Both the position numbers and the translations under genes were made by a program. From Oscillatoria salina IIICB1 (GTDB lineage Bacteria > Cyanobacteriota > Cyanobacteriia > Cyanobacteriales > SIO1D9), in assembly GCF_020144665.1 (NCBI RefSeq), contig NZ_JAAHBQ010000046.1:1-49371 (forward strand): a stretch of 49,371 bases of DNA. Reading direction: 5' to 3'. Below the pieces are notes generated by a model. That model saw only the letters and a list, made by a program, of their open reading frames with translations. It was not told the origin of the DNA and searched no databases. This document shows, in pieces, positions 2,691 to 28,613 of this stretch; position 1 is the stretch's first letter; each line of letters begins with the position of its first letter.

Positions 2691-5174
2691 TTAAGTTTGT
2701 AAGCGATTGCTGTTTTCGCTCGCATCGCTATTTGCTTCTAATTCTGGCGCAATTTCTTCGTTAGCGATCGCTGTTTCTTCTTCGCTGGCTACAGTTTCAG
2801 CGCTATTTGCTTCTAATTCTGGCGCAATTTCTTCGTTAGCGAGCGCTGTTTCTTCTTCGCTGGCTACAGTTTCAGCGCTATTTGCTTCTAATTCTGGCGC
2901 AATCTCTTCATTAGCGAGCGCTGTTTCTTCTTCGCTGGCTACAGTTTCAGCGCTATTTGCTTCTAATTCTGGCGCAATCTCTTCATTAGCGAGCGCTGTT
3001 TCTTCTTCGCTGGCTACAGTTTCAGCGTTATTTGCTTCTAATTCTGGCGCAATCTCTTCATTAGCGAGCGCTGTTTCTTCTTCGCTGACTACAGTTTCAG
3101 CGTTATTTGCTTCTAATTCTGGCGCAATCTCTTCATTAGCGAGCGCTGTTTCTTCTTGAATTACTGCGATATTTTCCTCTAGATGTGAGGTTGTCTGTTC
3201 CCTTGGGCGATCGCTATTATCAAATTGTTCTTCAAAAACCGATTCCGTATTTTCTTCTCCTGGTAGATTTGTCACTTCTTGCGTCGATTCTTCATCCCAA
3301 GGAGATACAATAGTAAACTCTTGAGCAAACATAAAATTTTCCGACGACTTATTCAATTCCTGATTTTGCTCAGTGTCTACTTCTTCAGACAAGCGATCCA
3401 AAGGAAAGTTCTCCAAATCTTCCTCAGCTAACAATTCTTCTGGTAATGCAAATGAATCTACCGCAGAATTTTCTTCAAATAACGAACTTTCATTGTTAAA
3501 TGAGTAATCTAAAGATTGAGATTCACTTTCAAAACGCTGTAAATCTTCACTTAGCTGCTGAAGTTTATTTTCGTCTAATACGTTTTCTAAATCTTCTCTA
3601 TCAGATTCCTGCTTATTTGTCAAGAGCAAATTTTCTTCTGGAGAAGCAGGAAGATAATCATCTTCATTGGGATCGGGTATAAACTCAAAATTAACTGGTG
3701 CGACATCGGAAGAATTTTGAGTAGGAAGTTCAATTAGCTCTGTCAAAGCATTAATTGTCTCAACCGCGTCAGAATCCTCAATCATAGCGACAGTAATGGG
3801 ATTAGTGTCGTTAGGTAAAGTAGAAACATCATCTGCATCCTCACCAAACAAAAATTCTTGAGCAGTGCGAGGTGTGGGAGCCGAAGTAAAATCTACTAAA
3901 GGAGTTAAACCACTTCCTGAAGCTGGATCTGGCAATCCTGCAAACAGAATCGCTTCCCCCCCAGGAGTTTCTAGTCGAGAAGAATGACTTGGCGATCGCC
4001 AATCAGCAAAAGATTCATCAACCGCTTCCGTAATCCGAACGAAAAGAGACTCAGATGTGCCAGTTTGTTCATTATCGGGCGATCCCAAGCGATCGGCAAT
4101 CGAAGCCAAATCTGGATTAATTTGCTCCGGGGGTAAATCCAGTTGAAAAATTGCTTCAATCGCGAGATCGCCGCTTAGGTTGCTAGACTTTTTCTCATCA
4201 CTTCTCGAAAATTCGTTATCTTCCTCACGATCTCCATCCGAGCTAATTTCTAAAAATTGCTCTTCATTTCCTAGCGCCGAATCCGCGCGAATTTCTATAC
4301 CCGCAAAAGGATAAACTTGTGGAGATAATCTTTTCCGTGCAGAAGCCAAAGATTCGCGATCGGAGGAACTTATTTGCTCTCGACTCAGCTTATTTACTTC
4401 TGGAGTAATTACTGGAGAAGAAGACAGCAAACTCACATTCAGCAATTCGCCTTTTTTGCCTAAATCGTAGAGATTTGCCAATCCTTCAGACAAAGACTGC
4501 TCGTAACTTTGTAAATCTCGTTGTAGCGTTTCCAACACCGCCCGAAAAGTCACATCCAAATTCAGCAACAAACCATCTGTTTCCTGTTGCAACCGGCGTA
4601 ACTGTTCGACCTGTTGCAATTGCTTTAAAATTAACGGAGTTTGTTCTGGATCAACTAAATCTGGTGGTTGAGACTGCAAAAACTCAGCTTCCAAATTCGA
4701 CCAAGTTTGCACCATTTGTTGCCGCAAACTAGCCTGCAAGCGAGTTGTCAGCACCTGTAAAAACTCTGCCAGTTGCTGTTGTCGCTCTTGACGTAGCTGA
4801 GTAACCTCTTGTTGCAGCAACTCTCTTTCTTGACGCAAAGCCGCCAATTCATCCCGCCAAGTTTGAACAGGATTAACCCCCACACTGTTCATTTGTTCTA
4901 CTATAGCTTCAGCGATCGCCCGATAGGGCGCGGGGTTTTGCCCAATCGCCGCAGTCATTTCTTGTTCGATCGAACTTAACTCTTCTGGAGGTGCAGTCGG
5001 AGTTACCAACTTACTATCCAGAGAAACCAAATAGCGACGAAGATTTTCGAGAACCAGCTTTTGCTCTTCAGCAACCTGATACCAATCAGCATCCGATTGA
5101 TTAGAGTCAGTCAGCAAAACGCGATCGATATCAGCGATAAGAGATTCGAGGTTTTGATCGTGTGGAAAAGTCAC
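2691..5174 (-). CDS. large acidic coiled-coil protein with C-terminal 25-residue tandem repeats
   Basis: An 827-residue protein I do not recognise. The first ~270 residues are rich in Q, L, E and R with heptad-like coiled-coil character (for example LRQERELLQQEVTQLRQER). The middle ~400 residues are acidic, S/E/D-rich and probably disordered. The C terminus carries about six near-identical 25-residue repeats of the type EEETALANEEIAPELEAN + AETVAS. There is no signal peptide or membrane segment. It sits just upstream of the Hsp70-like gene on the same strand, suggesting a partner or scaffold role (inference only). The near-identity of the repeats at DNA level points to recent expansion. Confidence 0.8.
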   Translation of the reverse strand: MTFPHDQNLESLIADIDRVLLTDSNQSDADWYQVAEEQKLVLENLRRYLVSLDSKLVTPTAPPEELSSIEQEMTAAIGQNPAPYRAIAEAIVEQMNSVGVNPVQTWRDELAALRQERELLQQEVTQLRQERQQQLAEFLQVLTTRLQASLRQQMVQTWSNLEAEFLQSQPPDLVDPEQTPLILKQLQQVEQLRRLQQETDGLLLNLDVTFRAVLETLQRDLQSYEQSLSEGLANLYDLGKKGELLNVSLLSSSPVITPEVNKLSREQISSSDRESLASARKRLSPQVYPFAGIEIRADSALGNEEQFLEISSDGDREEDNEFSRSDEKKSSNLSGDLAIEAIFQLDLPPEQINPDLASIADRLGSPDNEQTGTSESLFVRITEAVDESFADWRSPSHSSRLETPGGEAILFAGLPDPASGSGLTPLVDFTSAPTPRTAQEFLFGEDADDVSTLPNDTNPITVAMIEDSDAVETINALTELIELPTQNSSDVAPVNFEFIPDPNEDDYLPASPEENLLLTNKQESDREDLENVLDENKLQQLSEDLQRFESESQSLDYSFNNESSLFEENSAVDSFALPEELLAEEDLENFPLDRLSEEVDTEQNQELNKSSENFMFAQEFTIVSPWDEESTQEVTNLPGEENTESVFEEQFDNSDRPREQTTSHLEENIAVIQEETALANEEIAPELEANNAETVVSEEETALANEEIAPELEANNAETVASEEETALANEEIAPELEANSAETVASEEETALANEEIAPELEANSAETVASEEETALANEEIAPELEANSAETVASEEETAIANEEIAPELEANSDASENSNRLQT
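2727..3157 (-). repeat. 75-bp tandem repeat inside a coding region (about six copies)
   Basis: Near-perfect 75-bp direct repeats lie in frame with the 827-residue protein, each encoding 25 residues. The copy nearest the stop codon carries the HIP1 octamer GCGATCGC, while the others read GCGAGCGC at the same place. Differences between copies are mostly single bases (N/S, V/A, L/I). Copy number is likely to vary between strains. Confidence 0.95.
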
Positions 5175-23225: not shown

Positions 23226-24060
23226 GACAGAGTTTTGGGACGAGGTTTTAGATTTTGCGGAGAAAATTACCGCCCGCGTTGGATCTCAATTAGTAACAGA
23301 ATTTGGTCAAATACGAGCAACGACAAAAGAAGATGGATCTTTAGTCACCCAAGCGGATAAATGGGCAGATCGAGAAATTACTGCGGCGATCGCGAATACT
23401 TTTCCTACCCACGGAGTTATCAGCGAAGAAACTCAACATATTCTCCCCGATACTGACTGGTGTTGGGTAATTGACCCCATCGACGGTACAACTAATTTTA
23501 CGCGGGGAATCCCAGTTTGGGGCATTTCTCTAGGTTTACTTTATCAAGGAACCCCTGTATTCGGTGCAGTCCGTTTACCTCCCCTCGGACAATTTTTTCA
23601 CGGTTATTGGTATGGTGATTCTGGTTTAACAGGTCCGACTGGCGCATATTTAAACGGTAATCCCATCCATACCAGCCCTGACTCGCCTACTAGCAACCAT
23701 TTATTTAACCTTTGCGCCCGCAGCACATCTGTCCTGAGAAATACTTTTCCCTGTAAAATTCGGGCGATCGGAGTTGCGACTTACAGCGTCATTCTCGTAG
23801 CTACTGGCGCTTCCCTCGGCGCAGTAGAAGCAACCCCGAAAATTTGGGATATTGCCGCAGTTTGGGCGATTTTAAAGGCTGCGGGTGGAGTTTTTGCCCA
23901 CATCGAACCAGAACCAGTTTTCCCCTTGACAATTGGCGAAAATTATGGTAAGCGTCCTTTTCCGAGTTTAGCTGCTAGTCGGGAAGAATTAGTACCTGTA
24001 TTTATGCCTTTGGTAGAATTTCTGGGAGAGAAGACACTGGGATCTCAATCTAAAAGCTAA
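23218..24060 (+). CDS. inositol monophosphatase family phosphatase
   Basis: Mg2+-dependent sugar-phosphate phosphatase fold. Motif 1 is GVISEETQHILPDTDWCWVIDPIDGTTNF (metal-binding E and D-P-I-D-G-T), and motif 2 is IWDIAAVWAILKAAGG. The ATG at 23218 overlaps the MFS stop codon; an earlier in-frame ATG (23176) would run deep into the transporter gene and is not favoured. 280 residues, normal for the family. Substrate could be inositol phosphate, histidinol phosphate or a related sugar phosphate; sequence alone does not decide. Confidence 0.93.
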   Translation: MDKTEFWDEVLDFAEKITARVGSQLVTEFGQIRATTKEDGSLVTQADKWADREITAAIANTFPTHGVISEETQHILPDTDWCWVIDPIDGTTNFTRGIPVWGISLGLLYQGTPVFGAVRLPPLGQFFHGYWYGDSGLTGPTGAYLNGNPIHTSPDSPTSNHLFNLCARSTSVLRNTFPCKIRAIGVATYSVILVATGASLGAVEATPKIWDIAAVWAILKAAGGVFAHIEPEPVFPLTIGENYGKRPFPSLAASREELVPVFMPLVEFLGEKTLGSQSKS

Positions 24061-24083
24061 GAATACTTTTCTAGTAAATTGAG

Positions 24084-24293
24084 TTAGAAATGTTGCCGAA
24101 TTATATCTAAGTTTAGTTCCAAAAATTCGGCTATCTCTTCAGCATTCCAATCTAGTTTTCGCAGCTTAGGTATCATGTCTAACTTTGTTTGTATCCGAGC
24201 TGCTCGAAATCCTTCTCGAAATCCCTCTTTAAAACCTTTTTTATACGCTTCTTGATAAGCTTTAGTTTGCTTTAATTCACCTATTTGAAGCAT
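24084..24293 (-). CDS. stand-alone Rpn C-terminal tail protein, copy A
   Basis: 69 residues, homologous end to end only to the C-terminal ~65 residues of the full Rpn protein at 24735-25532: same MLxxxELKQTxxYQEA start, a K/E-G-F/R charged repeat linker (here longer, with KEGFREGF), then TKLxMIPKLRxLDxxAEEIAEFLEL and QH at the end. The last 30 residues look like a helix-turn-helix. The start codon aligns with an internal Met of the full protein. Preceded on its own strand by GAGAGAC about 10 bases before ATG. Could be a decayed duplicate or a free-standing inhibitor or regulator. Confidence 0.7.
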   Translation of the reverse strand: MLQIGELKQTKAYQEAYKKGFKEGFREGFRAARIQTKLDMIPKLRKLDWNAEEIAEFLELNLDIIRQHF

Positions 24294-24427
24294 AATTACT
24301 CTTGTCTCTCAAATAAATTTACAGCAGTTATTAATTCTAGATAGAGGGGCAATTATCTCTAAATTACCCATTTTGAACTTGTGATAAAAAGCTACAAAAA
24401 TTAGAGATAACTTTGTAATCTAGCAAA
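24294..24427. repeat. duplicated spacer, copy 1
   Basis: Shares long identical blocks with 24602-24734: GTCTCTCAAATAAATTTACAG, AGAGGGGCAATT, ACTTGTGATAAAAAGCTACA, and AAAAATTAGAGATAA. It precedes tail copy A and follows tail copy B when read on the minus strand. Confidence 0.85.
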
Positions 24428-24601
24428 TTATAGATGTTGCTGAACTATCTCTAAATCAAGTTCCAAAACTTCCGCTATTTCTTCAGCAGTCCAATCTAAT
24501 TTTTGCAGCTTAGGTATCATTGCTAACTTCGTCTCTAGGGAACCTTCTTCTTTTGCTTCTTGATAAACTCTAGTTTGCTTTAATTCACTTAGCCAAAGCA
24601 T
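24428..24601 (-). CDS. stand-alone Rpn C-terminal tail protein, copy B (57 residues)
   Basis: An intact small gene: start MLWLSELKQTRVYQEAKEEG, then SLETKLAMIPKLQKLDWTAE and EIAEVLELDLEIVQQHL-stop. It is closer to the full-length Rpn tail than copy A, but the charged KEEG repeat is shortened to one unit. Its ATG corresponds to Met201 of the full protein. The frame is intact with conservative differences, which argues that it is not simply dead. Flanked on both sides by copies of the same ~134-base spacer. Function not established. Confidence 0.68.
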   Translation of the reverse strand: MLWLSELKQTRVYQEAKEEGSLETKLAMIPKLQKLDWTAEEIAEVLELDLEIVQQHL

Positions 24602-24734
24602 AATTTATCTCGTCTCTCAAATAAATTTACAGATGTTACAAACCTCAATAGAGGGGCAATTTAGGGATAACTGCCCCTTTTAAACTTGTGATAAAAAGCT
24701 ACAAAAATTAGAGATAAATTCGTAGTCTAGCAAA
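24602..24734. repeat. duplicated spacer, copy 2
   Basis: 133 bases matching 24294-24427 in long blocks. It contains an additional seven-base hairpin (AGGGGCA at 24652-24658 and TGCCCCT at 24672-24678) that could act as an attenuator or terminator between the full Rpn gene and tail copy B. Confidence 0.85.
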
Positions 24735-25532
24735 TTATAGATGTTGCTGAACTATCTCTAAATCGAGTTCCAAAAACTCAGCTATTTCTTCAGCAGTTAA
24801 ATCTAGTTGTCGCAGCTTAGGTATCATTGCTAACTTTGTCTTTAGTGTAGCTTCTTCTCGACCTTCTTCTCGACCTTCTTCTTTTGCTTCTTGATAGACT
24901 CTAGTTTGCTTTAATTCGCTTAATCCTAACATAGCTTCTATGTCCTCCCGGCTCAAATTAGGGAATTTGTAAAGAACAATCGTTTCTATTAATTCTAAGA
25001 CTTGTTGCTGGAGATTGACATCCGCCAAGTCGGTTGTAGTTTTAGCAATAAGCTGACGAGCAAAATCTCCAGCTTGGTTTGGCGACTCGACAACTAACTG
25101 AATAATACCAAAACCGAGAGATTGTTCGCCTAAATTGCCAATTTCATCGAGATAAATACGCTGTACATGATTCGACAATAAGTTTTGGTAGCGTGGGTGA
25201 CATTCTGCTTCGGTACTGCGGCGACGGTAGATAATTACAACATACCAATCTTCGCTCGGAGGTTCATACTGGTAAAAGTAAAGAAAAATTTCGGAAAATA
25301 GCCGCGAATAGAATTTTTTCTGTTTTTGAAATTGTACTTCGACAAAGTAAATGGGTTTGTCGGTAGCTTTATCTATGGGGAGAAATAACCCATCGAAGCG
25401 AAAAGCTTTTTGCTTGACTTCTGGAGAAGTAAATTGATAGCTGCTGACATCAGTATCAGGTTTACCAATTAGTTCAAAGAAAATACTAGGGAAATTCTTA
25501 AATAATTCGTAAAAAAGTGTATCTGTTTTCAT
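24735..25532 (-). CDS. Rpn-family (DUF2887-like) PD-(D/E)XK protein, full length
   Basis: A 265-residue member of the Rpn/transposase-like nuclease families abundant in cyanobacteria. The start MKTDTLFYELFKNFPSIFFELIG is typical. The nuclease-like core has D47 in FRFDGLF and E65-V-Q67 in YFVEVQFQK (a Q where K is common), then FYSRLFSEIFLYFYQYEP. The C-terminal tail from Met201 carries the charged EEGREEGREE linker and a helix-turn-helix-like end. Rpn proteins of E. coli are DNA nucleases that can be toxic. Two separate copies of the tail follow downstream on the same strand. Confidence 0.88.
   Translation of the reverse strand: MKTDTLFYELFKNFPSIFFELIGKPDTDVSSYQFTSPEVKQKAFRFDGLFLPIDKATDKPIYFVEVQFQKQKKFYSRLFSEIFLYFYQYEPPSEDWYVVIIYRRRSTEAECHPRYQNLLSNHVQRIYLDEIGNLGEQSLGFGIIQLVVESPNQAGDFARQLIAKTTTDLADVNLQQQVLELIETIVLYKFPNLSREDIEAMLGLSELKQTRVYQEAKEEGREEGREEATLKTKLAMIPKLRQLDLTAEEIAEFLELDLEIVQQHL
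24943..24949 (-). promoter_or_regulatory. possible internal ribosome-binding site in the rpn gene
   Basis: GGGAGGA (minus strand) lies about 10 bases upstream of the in-frame ATG at 24932, which would begin a 65-residue C-terminal product equivalent to the two stand-alone tail genes. The spacing is a little long. Internal initiation producing an inhibitory short form has been reported for E. coli rpn genes; here it is an inference. Confidence 0.4.
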
Positions 25533-25765
25533 CAGTTAAGTTTCTTTTTTCTTTAGATTTGCCGGAAGCTAGTCAAATTGAGTAAATTTGTCTCTGGTAA
25601 CTAGAGGGAATTCCCCCAACTTTTCTAACTTTTTATGTCGTTGCGTGAGGTTTTGTATCAATCGAGCCTCGGAATCAGAATTTTTTTTGCGCTTACGGCA
25701 TCCTATGAAAATAGCAGAAAAATTTACCATTCTCGAATTGAAGAGAATACCAAGGAGGTTAATAA

Positions 25766-27286
25766 ATGGTTGTCTCTGCACCTACTTCTTTAATTAATCA
25801 AAACATTTACAAAGCACGTTACGATAACTTTATTGGCGGTCAATGGGTGGCACCAACTAATCGCCAATATGTAGATAATCTTTCTCCGATCACAGGTAAG
25901 CCACTTTGTCAAGTGCCGCGTTCCAGTGCAGAAGACATCGAATTAGCCTTAGATGCAGCCCATGCAGCCAAAGAAAGCTGGGGAAATACATCCGTTGCGG
26001 AACGTGCGAGGATTCTGCAACAGATCGGCGATCGCATGGAAGAAAACCTGGAAATGCTCGCAACAGCAGAAACTTGGGACAATGGTAAACCAATTCGCGA
26101 AACCAAAATCGCAGATATTCCCCTAGCGATCGACCATTTCCGTTATTTTGCAGGTTGTATTCGCGCCCAAGAAGGTACAATCGGCGAAATTGACCAAGAT
26201 ACAATTGCTTATCACTTCCGCGAACCTTTGGGAGTAGTCGGTCAAATTATTCCTTGGAATTTCCCGATTTTAATGGCAGCTTGGAAACTCGCCCCCGCCT
26301 TAGCTGCTGGTAATTGTGTCGTCCTCAAACCCGCAGGTCCGACTCCAGCTTCTATTCTGGTTTTAATGGACTTAATCGGCGATTTACTACCCGATGGAGT
26401 CATTAATATTGTCAACGGAAATGGCGCAGAAATTGGCAAAGCTTTAGCCACAAATTCGCGTATTGCTAAAGTTGCTTTTACCGGAGAAACAACCACCGGG
26501 CGACTAATTATGCAGTACGCCTCGCAAAATATTATTCCGGTAACTTTAGAATTAGGTGGAAAATCACCTAACGTTTTCTTTGGTGATGTTTGCGCCGAAG
26601 ATGACGACTTTTTCGATAAAGCGATCGAAGGATTTGTCATGTTTGCGCTTAACCAAGGTGAAGTTTGTACTTGTCCTTCTCGCGCTTTAATTCAAGAATC
26701 AATTTACGATCGCTTCATGGAAAAAGCCTTAGCCAGAGTTGGTCAAATCAAACAAGGAAATCCTCTCGAAGCAGATACCGCGATCGGCGCACAGGTTTCT
26801 CTCAATCAATTAGAGAAAATTCAATCCTATGTTGATATCGGTCGTCAAGAAGGCGCAGAATGTTTGATTGGTGGCGATCGTAATATTTTAAACGGCGAAT
26901 TGCAAGACGGTTACTATTACCAACCTACTGTTTTTAAGGGTCACAATAAAATGCGCATCTTCCAAGAAGAAATTTTCGGTCCCGTCTTAGCAGTGACGAC
27001 GTTTAAAGATGAAGCAGAAGCTTTAGAAATTGCCAACGATACTTTGTATGGACTAGGTGCGGGAGTTTGGTCGCGAGATATGAATACCGCTTACCGGATG
27101 GGACGAGCAATTAAAGCAGGACGAGTTTGGACAAATTGTTATCATTTGTATCCTGCTCATGCTGCTTTTGGTGGTTATAAAGTTTCTGGTATCGGTCGTG
27201 AAACTCACAAGATGATGTTAGAACATTATCAACAAACTAAGAATTTGTTGGTAAGTTATAGTCCAAAAGCAATGGGATTTTTCTAA
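25766..27286 (+). CDS. NAD-dependent aldehyde dehydrogenase (AldB/ExaC-like)
   Basis: Oxidises aldehydes to carboxylates. Full length at 506 residues. Motifs are [44 protein letters not shown], the catalytic Glu in [14 protein letters not shown] and the catalytic Cys in [11 protein letters not shown], then [11 protein letters not shown] and [13 protein letters not shown] strong AAGGAGG lies seven bases before the ATG. Pairing with a DUF779 gene just downstream is typical of acetaldehyde/AldB-type dehydrogenases. Physiological substrate probably a short-chain aldehyde (inference). Confidence 0.96.
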
Positions 27287-27851: not shown

Positions 27852-28613
27852 TTATTCGGGATTAATACCCATTTCTCTTAATTTTGCTTCTAAAGCTTGA
27901 CTGCGCTGTCTTTCCCTTTCTAATTCGGTTAATGCTTCATTTGCTCGTTGAGTTTCTTCTTCGATTCTAGCTAAAGCTTGTTCTTTTTCTTGACGCTCTT
28001 TTTCTCGTAATTGTGCTAGTTCCACAAAAGTGAAAAAACGTTCTCCATCGGGATGATAAATTTCGAGGGAGTTTGCTGTTAGTTGGAAGCGGATTTGTAG
28101 TTGAGGGCTAATCCAACCGTTCATTTGTTCAATGACATCTAAAAAATTTTGCGATCGCCCCGAAGGGCGCTGGGCTTCGCCCAATCGCACCCAACCAATT
28201 AACTCATTATCGTCCGGATCGTAAATATAATATTCTTGGACATTATAGCGATTATAAAAGCTAAATTTTCTCGCCATTTCTTGCAAACGATTACCAGGAG
28301 ATAAAATTTCAAAAACAACTTGAGGTGCAATATTATCTTCTTCCCATTGTTTATAAGAACCTCGATCGCCTTTTGGTCTACCAAAAACAACCATTGCATC
28401 TGGTGCAGTACGAATTTTATTATCTCCTTCCACTGGATACCAAAGCAAATCTCCAGCGACAAAAACATCAGGATTATCTGCAAATAAAAGTTCTAGGTTT
28501 TCTTTAATTACGACAATCCAGCGAAATTGTTTGGTATTATCTGCCATTGGTTGACCATCGCTATCGGGATAGATAATCTTTTTAGAAGTTTCCGTGGAGA
28601 GTTGGTTAATCAT
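27852..28613 (-). CDS. Uma2-family (DUF820) endonuclease-like protein
   Basis: A 253-residue member of the Uma2 family, a PD-(D/E)XK-fold group greatly expanded in cyanobacteria with unproven activity. Core motifs are VAGDLLWYPVEG, TAPDAMVVFGRPKGDRGSYKQW, PQVVFEILSPGNR and KFSFYNRYNVQEYYIYDPDDNELIGWVR. The C-terminal ~60 residues are a charged coiled coil (EKERQEKEQALARIEEETQRANEALTE). A GCGATCGC-containing palindromic segment (28151-28188) is inserted in frame and contributes RLGEAQRPSGRSQ. Stands alone; possibly toxin- or mobile-element-related. Confidence 0.88.
   Translation of the reverse strand: MINQLSTETSKKIIYPDSDGQPMADNTKQFRWIVVIKENLELLFADNPDVFVAGDLLWYPVEGDNKIRTAPDAMVVFGRPKGDRGSYKQWEEDNIAPQVVFEILSPGNRLQEMARKFSFYNRYNVQEYYIYDPDDNELIGWVRLGEAQRPSGRSQNFLDVIEQMNGWISPQLQIRFQLTANSLEIYHPDGERFFTFVELAQLREKERQEKEQALARIEEETQRANEALTELERERQRSQALEAKLREMGINPE
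28151..28188. repeat. palindromic HIP1-bearing insert within the Uma2 gene
   Basis: Outer GCGAT/ATCGC ends enclose a GGGCG...CGCCC hairpin. It is in frame and adds about 12 residues (GEAQRPSGRS) to a surface turn. Confidence 0.6.

Follow-up and report, generated by a model that had tools for sequence, protein, structure and literature searches.

Rpn genes occur in 34 bacterial phyla, and those of Escherichia coli encode both a full-length nuclease (RpnL) and a C-terminal inhibitor (RpnS) that is translated from an internal start, according to the available part of PMC10327210. The same text describes stand-alone RpnS genes located next to rpn genes in E. coli, and the legend of its Fig. 4D states that RpnCL is blocked only by RpnCS with an equal repeat number, a rule examined for a single protein of E. 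coli, RpnC. In the cyanobacterium Oscillatoria salina IIICB1, a contig of 49,371 nt that was analyzed over its whole length (hereafter, the window; contig C46 of the 5.96-Mb genome) carries on the minus strand a full-length gene of this type followed by two small genes, tail gene 1 and tail gene 2, that correspond only to its 3' end. The question raised by this locus is what two free copies of a putative inhibitor, which differ in length from each other and from the tail of the full-length protein, could be doing beside the complete gene. Here, we compare this locus with its relatives in cyanobacteria and E. coli, and favor, while stopping short of calling it probable, its interpretation as an Rpn-type toxin-antitoxin system of the DUF2887 family in which non-matching RpnS-type free tails serve as exchangeable tail cassettes.

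Organization of the locus

The three open reading frames (ORFs) were found on the minus strand at the positions assigned to them in a preliminary description of this DNA, with both tail frames intact (Table 1). As that description had it, the small ORFs match only residues 201-265 of the full-length protein, each beginning at an ATG equivalent to Met201, with protein identity of 88% for tail 1 and 63% for tail 2; at the DNA level, 158 of 173 and 157 of 195 aligned bases, respectively, are identical to the tail of the full gene. When the complete genome of 5.96 Mb was searched, both tails were detected, with E-values of 2.3e-20 and 3.6e-18, far above chance. The copied spacer ahead of each tail gene was recovered as well, 111 of the 132 aligned bases being identical between its two versions, and the difference in linker length among the three copies proved to be regular, with 15 residues between the YQEA and TKL motifs in the full-length protein, 7 in tail 1 and 19 in tail 2, that is, differences of 8 and 4.

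A repeat finder placed the three copies in register, the repeated unit consisting of a tail and the spacer that follows it. This order of repeats implies that the unit of tail plus spacer was duplicated, with the new junction directly 5' of the Met201 ATG, so that the tail genes look like products of tandem duplication of the 3' end of the full gene. Near the Rpn locus, the window also contains, on the minus strand at 27852-28613, an ORF with a charged C-terminal stretch, which we take to be Uma2/DUF820-like.

Table 1. Features of the Rpn-type locus in the window (contig C46 of Oscillatoria salina IIICB1)
Feature	Position	Strand	Evidence
Full-length DUF2887/Rpn nuclease-like gene, 265 aa	24735..25532	-	ORF; PF11103 263.3 bits; TIGR01784 119 bits (cut-off 52.1)
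Codons of putative catalytic residues, D47 to E65-x-Q67	25332..25394	-	Invariant in 16/16 aligned homologues; catalytic role suggested by the PD-(D/E)XK pattern
Internal Shine-Dalgarno-like GGAGG, 11 nt 5' of the Met201 ATG	24944..24948	-	Sequence AGCCGGGAGGACATAGAAGCT ahead of ATG; family-wide excess
RpnS-like tail within the full gene (residues 201-265), its translation probably starting internally at 24930-24932	24735..24932	-	Alignment with tail genes; Shine-Dalgarno excess
Helix segment of variable length in the full gene (15 residues, 217-231)	24840..24884	-	Alignment; family lengths change in steps of four
Spacer 1 (133 nt), separating tail gene 1 from the full gene	24602..24734	-	84.1% identity with spacer 2
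Tail gene 1, free-standing, 57 aa, 7-residue segment	24428..24601	-	ORF; dN/dS 0.12 vs full tail; Shine-Dalgarno match of 3 nt only
Spacer 2, 134 nt, between tail gene 1 and tail gene 2	24294..24427	-	84.1% identity with spacer 1
Tail gene 2, free-standing, 69 aa, 19-residue segment	24084..24293	-	ORF; dN/dS 0.39 vs full tail, 0.54 vs tail 1; Shine-Dalgarno match of 3 nt only

Family and predicted fold of the full-length protein

The full-length protein is of the Rpn type, as had been proposed, scoring above the curated cut-off of TIGR01784 and matching PF11103 (DUF2887; cut-off 24.1) with an E-value of 2.2e-78. The free tails alone scored 24.5 and 27.8 bits against TIGR01784, under the cut-off of 52.1, as is expected of fragments. 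An AlphaFold2 model of the full-length protein, built from the alignment of 16 proteins in all of which D47, E65 and Q67 are conserved, reached a mean pLDDT of 81.7, with residues 209-224 below 50. Foldseek alone found no match to this model at an E-value of 0.001 or better. When 998 Foldseek-ranked chains were realigned, the best match was Pyrococcus EndoMS/NucS (rmsd 3.5 Å over 103 residues, with a Z-score of 8.1, although, as the tool warns, values near 8 can be common), followed by McrBC and, lower down, by R.BspD6I, SdaI and BamHI, interspersed with unrelated helical matches; we take these five to be PD-(D/E)XK-fold enzymes. Because such Z-scores can be common, the structural matches are taken together with the family model and the residue conservation; jointly, they lend moderate support to a nuclease fold of the PD-(D/E)XK type in which acidic residues are conserved.

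Several other searches were set aside. A model predicted from the single sequence had a poor N-domain and was left out of the fold assignment. Among solved structures searched by sequence, profile A2 retrieved 8vd6 (CAP repeat) with an E-value of 1.3e-18 that is a sum over five repeats matching short C-terminal helices, its other matches being weak; profile A4 gave the same result, and a 47-residue E. coli stretch retrieved designed helical proteins. The structure of RpnAS (7TH0 according to the available part of PMC10327210) was absent from these sequence searches. None of the three proteins of the locus matched a model of PADLOC-DB (library of 2023) at an E-value of 0.1.

A probable internal translation start at Met201

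The tail of the full-length protein corresponds to RpnS, and a free RpnS copy beside an rpn gene is itself an arrangement described in the available text of PMC10327210. The internal start at Met201, put forward earlier by analogy with E. coli, now has strong support from the sequences. In the O. salina gene, the stretch AGCCGGGAGGACATAGAAGCT, with GGAGG, lies ahead of the Met201 ATG. The 142 full genes located away from contig ends reduce to 137 distinct DUF2887 genes, and in 116 of these a Shine-Dalgarno (SD) match of at least 5 nt is present in the 21 nt 5' of the Met201 codon, against 24.8 expected when codons are replaced by synonymous ones drawn from the same genes (binomial p about 1e-63, uncorrected for relatedness) and a rate of about 4% at 142 other internal Met codons. 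The codon itself is ATG in 121 of the 137 genes, with Met one residue further on in 10 more. This excess makes the internal start very probably a conserved feature of the DUF2887 family.

Free-standing tails in other genomes

The tail profile was searched in 60 genomes, those of O. salina IIICB1 and of 59 members of the same order (none of the 59 from the same family), and matches were obtained in 52 of the 60, O. salina included. Two samples of loci were derived: set 1, the 100 best-scoring stretches among the matches listed in this search, 4 of them from O. salina, and set 2, 80 named loci selected by similarity to the full-length protein (best 80 of 90). Free tails recur beside full genes in these cyanobacterial genomes, mostly downstream: for set 2 genes with 1 kb on both sides, a free or short tail ORF was found within 1 kb downstream in 9 of 43 cases and upstream in 1 of 43 (best 80 of 90), and for set 1 in 7 of 58 and 1 of 58, respectively (among the matches listed). 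Short tail-bearing ORFs, a set that includes truncated full genes, have a start codon near the Met201 position in 73 of 78 cases, with an SD match of at least 5 nt in 56 of these 73. The duplication junctions vary between loci. On two other O. salina contigs, C38 and C3, a tail lies behind a DUF2887 gene, the one on C3 containing an in-frame stop.

The locus in the window is like a number of cyanobacterial DUF2887 loci (C38, C3, L083/L177, L179/L217/L186, L130, L152, L205 and L226) in which a same-strand tail ORF follows the full gene, includes the equivalent of Met201 and differs from that gene in repeat number; those loci, however, mostly have one free tail, and several retain codons 5' of Met201 together with the SD. 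It also resembles the E. coli rpnE-ypaA and rpnC-rpnCS loci (available part of PMC10327210), where an rpn gene with intragenic RpnS is accompanied just downstream by a separate RpnS copy and the four-residue repeats vary in number. Unlike these, it has a DUF2887 N-domain and two tandem free tails of two lengths and, whereas ypaA keeps an SD, the free tails of the window lack one. The annotation of E. coli records L258-L266 and L274-L282 places an incomplete pseudogene without the N-terminus at the ypaA position, yet the frame is open and has its own SD; the product of K-12 ypaA has been detected (available part of PMC10327210).

Other arrangements were observed as well. In Dolichospermum sp. 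ST_sed8 (L206, 2171-3926), two near-identical full Rpn genes stand in tandem, with the same linker and a C-terminal end that is different and longer. On O. salina contig C52 (L044, 22000-26500), a DUF2887 gene appears to be interrupted by an ORF of 413 residues, with matches to profile positions 1-40 on one side of it and 107-200 on the other; this ORF looks to us like TnpB/OrfB of an IS200/IS605-type element. Tail-bearing ORFs that stand in tandem at contig ends of genome G027 (L153 and L164) are distinguished mainly by how many REEG repeats they have, and are perhaps longer arrays broken by assembly.

Repeat number in full genes and free tails

The YQEA-to-TKL length changes in steps of four: among the matches listed, all but one of 147 full genes (146) and all but two of 50 free tails (48) fall into a single class modulo 4. 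The length between two anchor residues ranges from 25 to 65 across the family, these counts covering the 233 ORFs in which both anchor residues could be placed. Adjacent full/tail pairs in cyanobacteria were compared for this length in 27 cases from 23 loci, not all independent (L061/L218, L083/L177 and L179/L217), with the small ORF downstream in 22 and upstream in 5, and with a piece of the N-domain kept in 8, including both pairs of equal length. The length differs in 25 of the 27 pairs (among the matches listed) and in all 19 whose small ORF has no N-domain remnant; the two equal pairs are L089, where the small ORF is cut by the contig end, and L097. At L193 and L238, which have tail-bearing frames below 200 aa and stand outside the 27 pairs, the lengths also differ (33/29 and 29/25). 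In E. coli K-12, RpnE has one repeat fewer than YpaA. Among E. coli strains picked to include differing match lengths, and hence no random sample, the lengths at rpnE/ypaA differ in 19 of 19, representing 9 distinct combinations, and those at rpnC/rpnCS in 6 of 6, by 6, 10 or 14 residues, which are not multiples of four. No remark on this mismatch between full gene and free tail was found in the available part of PMC10327210 or in the titles and abstract openings of related literature.

Selection for mismatch was tested and found no support. In control comparisons, full genes paired with each other have equal length in 12-18% of cases across identity bins from 0.2 to 0.9, in 3 of 6 pairs with identical tails, and in 5 of 19 pairs whose N-domains share 95% identity or more. 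The 2 equal pairs among 27 are not clearly below these values, the difference being unconvincing, and the 9 combinations at E. coli rpnE are too few to show avoidance of equal length. Since control pairs themselves are seldom equal, the repeats change very fast, and selection for mismatch cannot be claimed. A partner for the free tails was also sought elsewhere in the O. salina genome, where other full genes carry other tail sequences; none stood out, equal lengths alone not being counted.

Selection on the free tails and alternative explanations

Outside the linker, dN/dS is 0.12 between the full tail and tail 1, 0.39 between the full tail and tail 2, and 0.54 between the two free tails, with few changes. 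The pN/pS ratio pooled over adjacent pairs is 0.38, single pairs ranging up to 0.67 (L173). For the orthologous free tails of L177 (Argonema antarcticum) and L083, which come from closely related genomes, dN/dS is 0.11 (7 silent and 3 replacement changes) despite lengths of 45 and 29. Judged by these ratios, some free tails are evidently under purifying selection. In the leader common to tails 1 and 2, the SD match extends over no more than 3 nt; the codons that form the SD were not carried along in the duplication, which makes translation of these tails less sure than the internal start. Promoter-like sites at the locus number 6 against 4.8 expected, and terminator-like sites 0 against 1.2. 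A TTTAGA-17-TATAAT match overlaps the ends of both the full gene and tail 1, but, as part of the sequence that was duplicated, it would recur in any case, and no weight is given to the repetition.

An alternative to function is that the free tails are by-products of frequent partial tandem duplications of 3' ends and are decaying, their intact frames reflecting youth or gene conversion, not use. The varying junctions, the stop in the tail on contig C3, the divergence of tail 2 with its higher dN/dS, the lack of an SD at both window tails and a repeat mismatch near what fast repeat change gives all fit this explanation. It is, however, at odds with the low dN/dS of tail 1 and of the L177/L083 tails, with the start codons near the Met201 position in the short tail-bearing ORFs (a set that includes truncated full genes), and with the expression of E. 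coli YpaA (available part of PMC10327210), and we consider it somewhat unlikely as an account of the locus. Decay is most plausible for tail 2, which, being the more diverged, may indeed be decaying.

The preliminary description had suggested that the duplicated tails provide dose-controlled or combinatorial regulation. In its direct form, this would mean that both free tails are translated, bind the neighboring nuclease and add dose or graded control despite the difference in length. E. coli YpaA, a gene product of the same kind, is made as a protein (available part of PMC10327210), tail 1 is close to the resident tail in sequence and constrained, and the sequence outside the variable segment is kept in register. 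A matched free RpnS, however, would have the same repeat number as the neighboring full-length protein, and the segments here comprise 15, 7 and 19 residues; under the equal-repeat rule, as given in the available text of PMC10327210, differences of 8 and 4 residues would make the free tails poor inhibitors of their neighbors, and the SD match of 3 nt adds to the case against direct inhibition, which we regard as unlikely. More dose of the same inhibitor is accordingly disfavored by the published rule, and this part of the earlier proposal is not upheld; combinatorial regulation by the free tails may still take place.

Finally, the helix-turn-helix-like appearance of the tail, also pointed out earlier, is in keeping with C-terminal helices at 247-254 and 258-264 in the AlphaFold2 model, with a weak match of residues 224-265 to a domain of a serine recombinase (Z-score of 4.5, 42 residues aligned) and with an HHPred remark on HTH motifs in the available part of PMC10327210, but transcriptional regulation of the locus by DNA-binding tails is very improbable, as no DNA-binding family exceeded its cut-off (MerR-DNA-bind, 12.4 bits against 25.4), inverted repeats of at least 20 nt were not found at 23700-26200, and the role described in that text is inhibition of a protein.

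Exchange of resident and free tails in related loci

The interpretation of free tails as exchangeable cassettes draws on a family of Nostoc loci (L179, L217 and L186) whose flanks are colinear on both sides. The N-domains of L186 and L179/L217 are 88-89% identical, and their resident tail ends 39%. The DNA of the L179 resident tail (3587-3814) matches the free tail of L186 (3825-4039) with 82.9% identity and, reciprocally, the L179 free tail (3825-4000) matches the resident tail of L186 (3594-3780) with 84.6% identity. In the tail tree, the free tail of L186 groups with the resident tails of L176, L178, L179, L217 and L238 (support 87/83, no branch starred). From these alignments, resident and free tails have evidently traded places in the syntenic Nostoc loci; the exchange was seen in this one locus family, not at the O. 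salina locus. Among the matches listed, 89 full-gene pairs have N-domains that share 75% identity or more; tails lag more than 30 points behind in 9 of them, and 8 of these pairs fall inside the same Nostoc family, the other being L079/L169. In E. coli C, RpnE ends in the C-terminal sequence of YpaA, which agrees with the fusion described in the available part of PMC10327210. Taken together, the Nostoc swaps and the E. coli C protein show that a free tail can become resident, either by direct exchange or by duplication followed by deletion.

Discussion

In the interpretation that we favor, the full gene would yield a PD-(D/E)XK-type nuclease and, from the internal ribosome-binding site and the Met201 ATG, a short tail acting as the matched inhibitor of the nuclease, by analogy with E. 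coli. Tandem duplication of the 3' end of the gene would have generated the two stand-alone tail genes, each differing from the resident tail in four-residue steps of the dimerization helix, and with a different repeat number neither would be expected to inhibit its neighbor well. The tails would instead persist as intact genes, a local stock from which recombination could supply a replacement for the resident tail; in the meantime, they may act as inhibitors of Rpn proteins that have a different number of repeats, or do little. Given that the toxin tail and the antitoxin are read from the same DNA, one recombination event would change both at once. For the window itself, we infer the translation of tails 1 and 2, their binding specificity and their upkeep for exchange. 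The fuller version of this scheme, a cassette system in which recombination between tail copies re-pairs the nuclease with a matching inhibitor and diversifies an anti-phage toxin-antitoxin without an unprotected intermediate, is possible but open to considerable doubt.

Spare modules that are located next to an active gene and brought in by recombination are familiar from the orphan immunity and toxin-tip modules of polymorphic toxin loci and from the switchable specificity subunits of type I restriction systems. Unlike those modules, the module proposed here would be the tail of the toxin and the antitoxin at once.

Relative to the available text of PMC10327210, our analysis adds a DUF2887 gene followed by tandem tails that differ in repeat length, an internal SD present across the family, a length mismatch that recurs, also in YpaA, and the exchange in Nostoc; the name DUF2887 was not found in the literature searched. 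The repeat rule described there leads to the prediction that K-12 YpaA does not neutralize RpnE well. The gene-within-gene design now takes in the DUF2887 family as well, by virtue of its conserved internal ribosome-binding site. If the free tails are indeed non-matching and exchangeable, this would explain both the upkeep of extra RpnS genes and the joint change of specificity of toxin and antitoxin.
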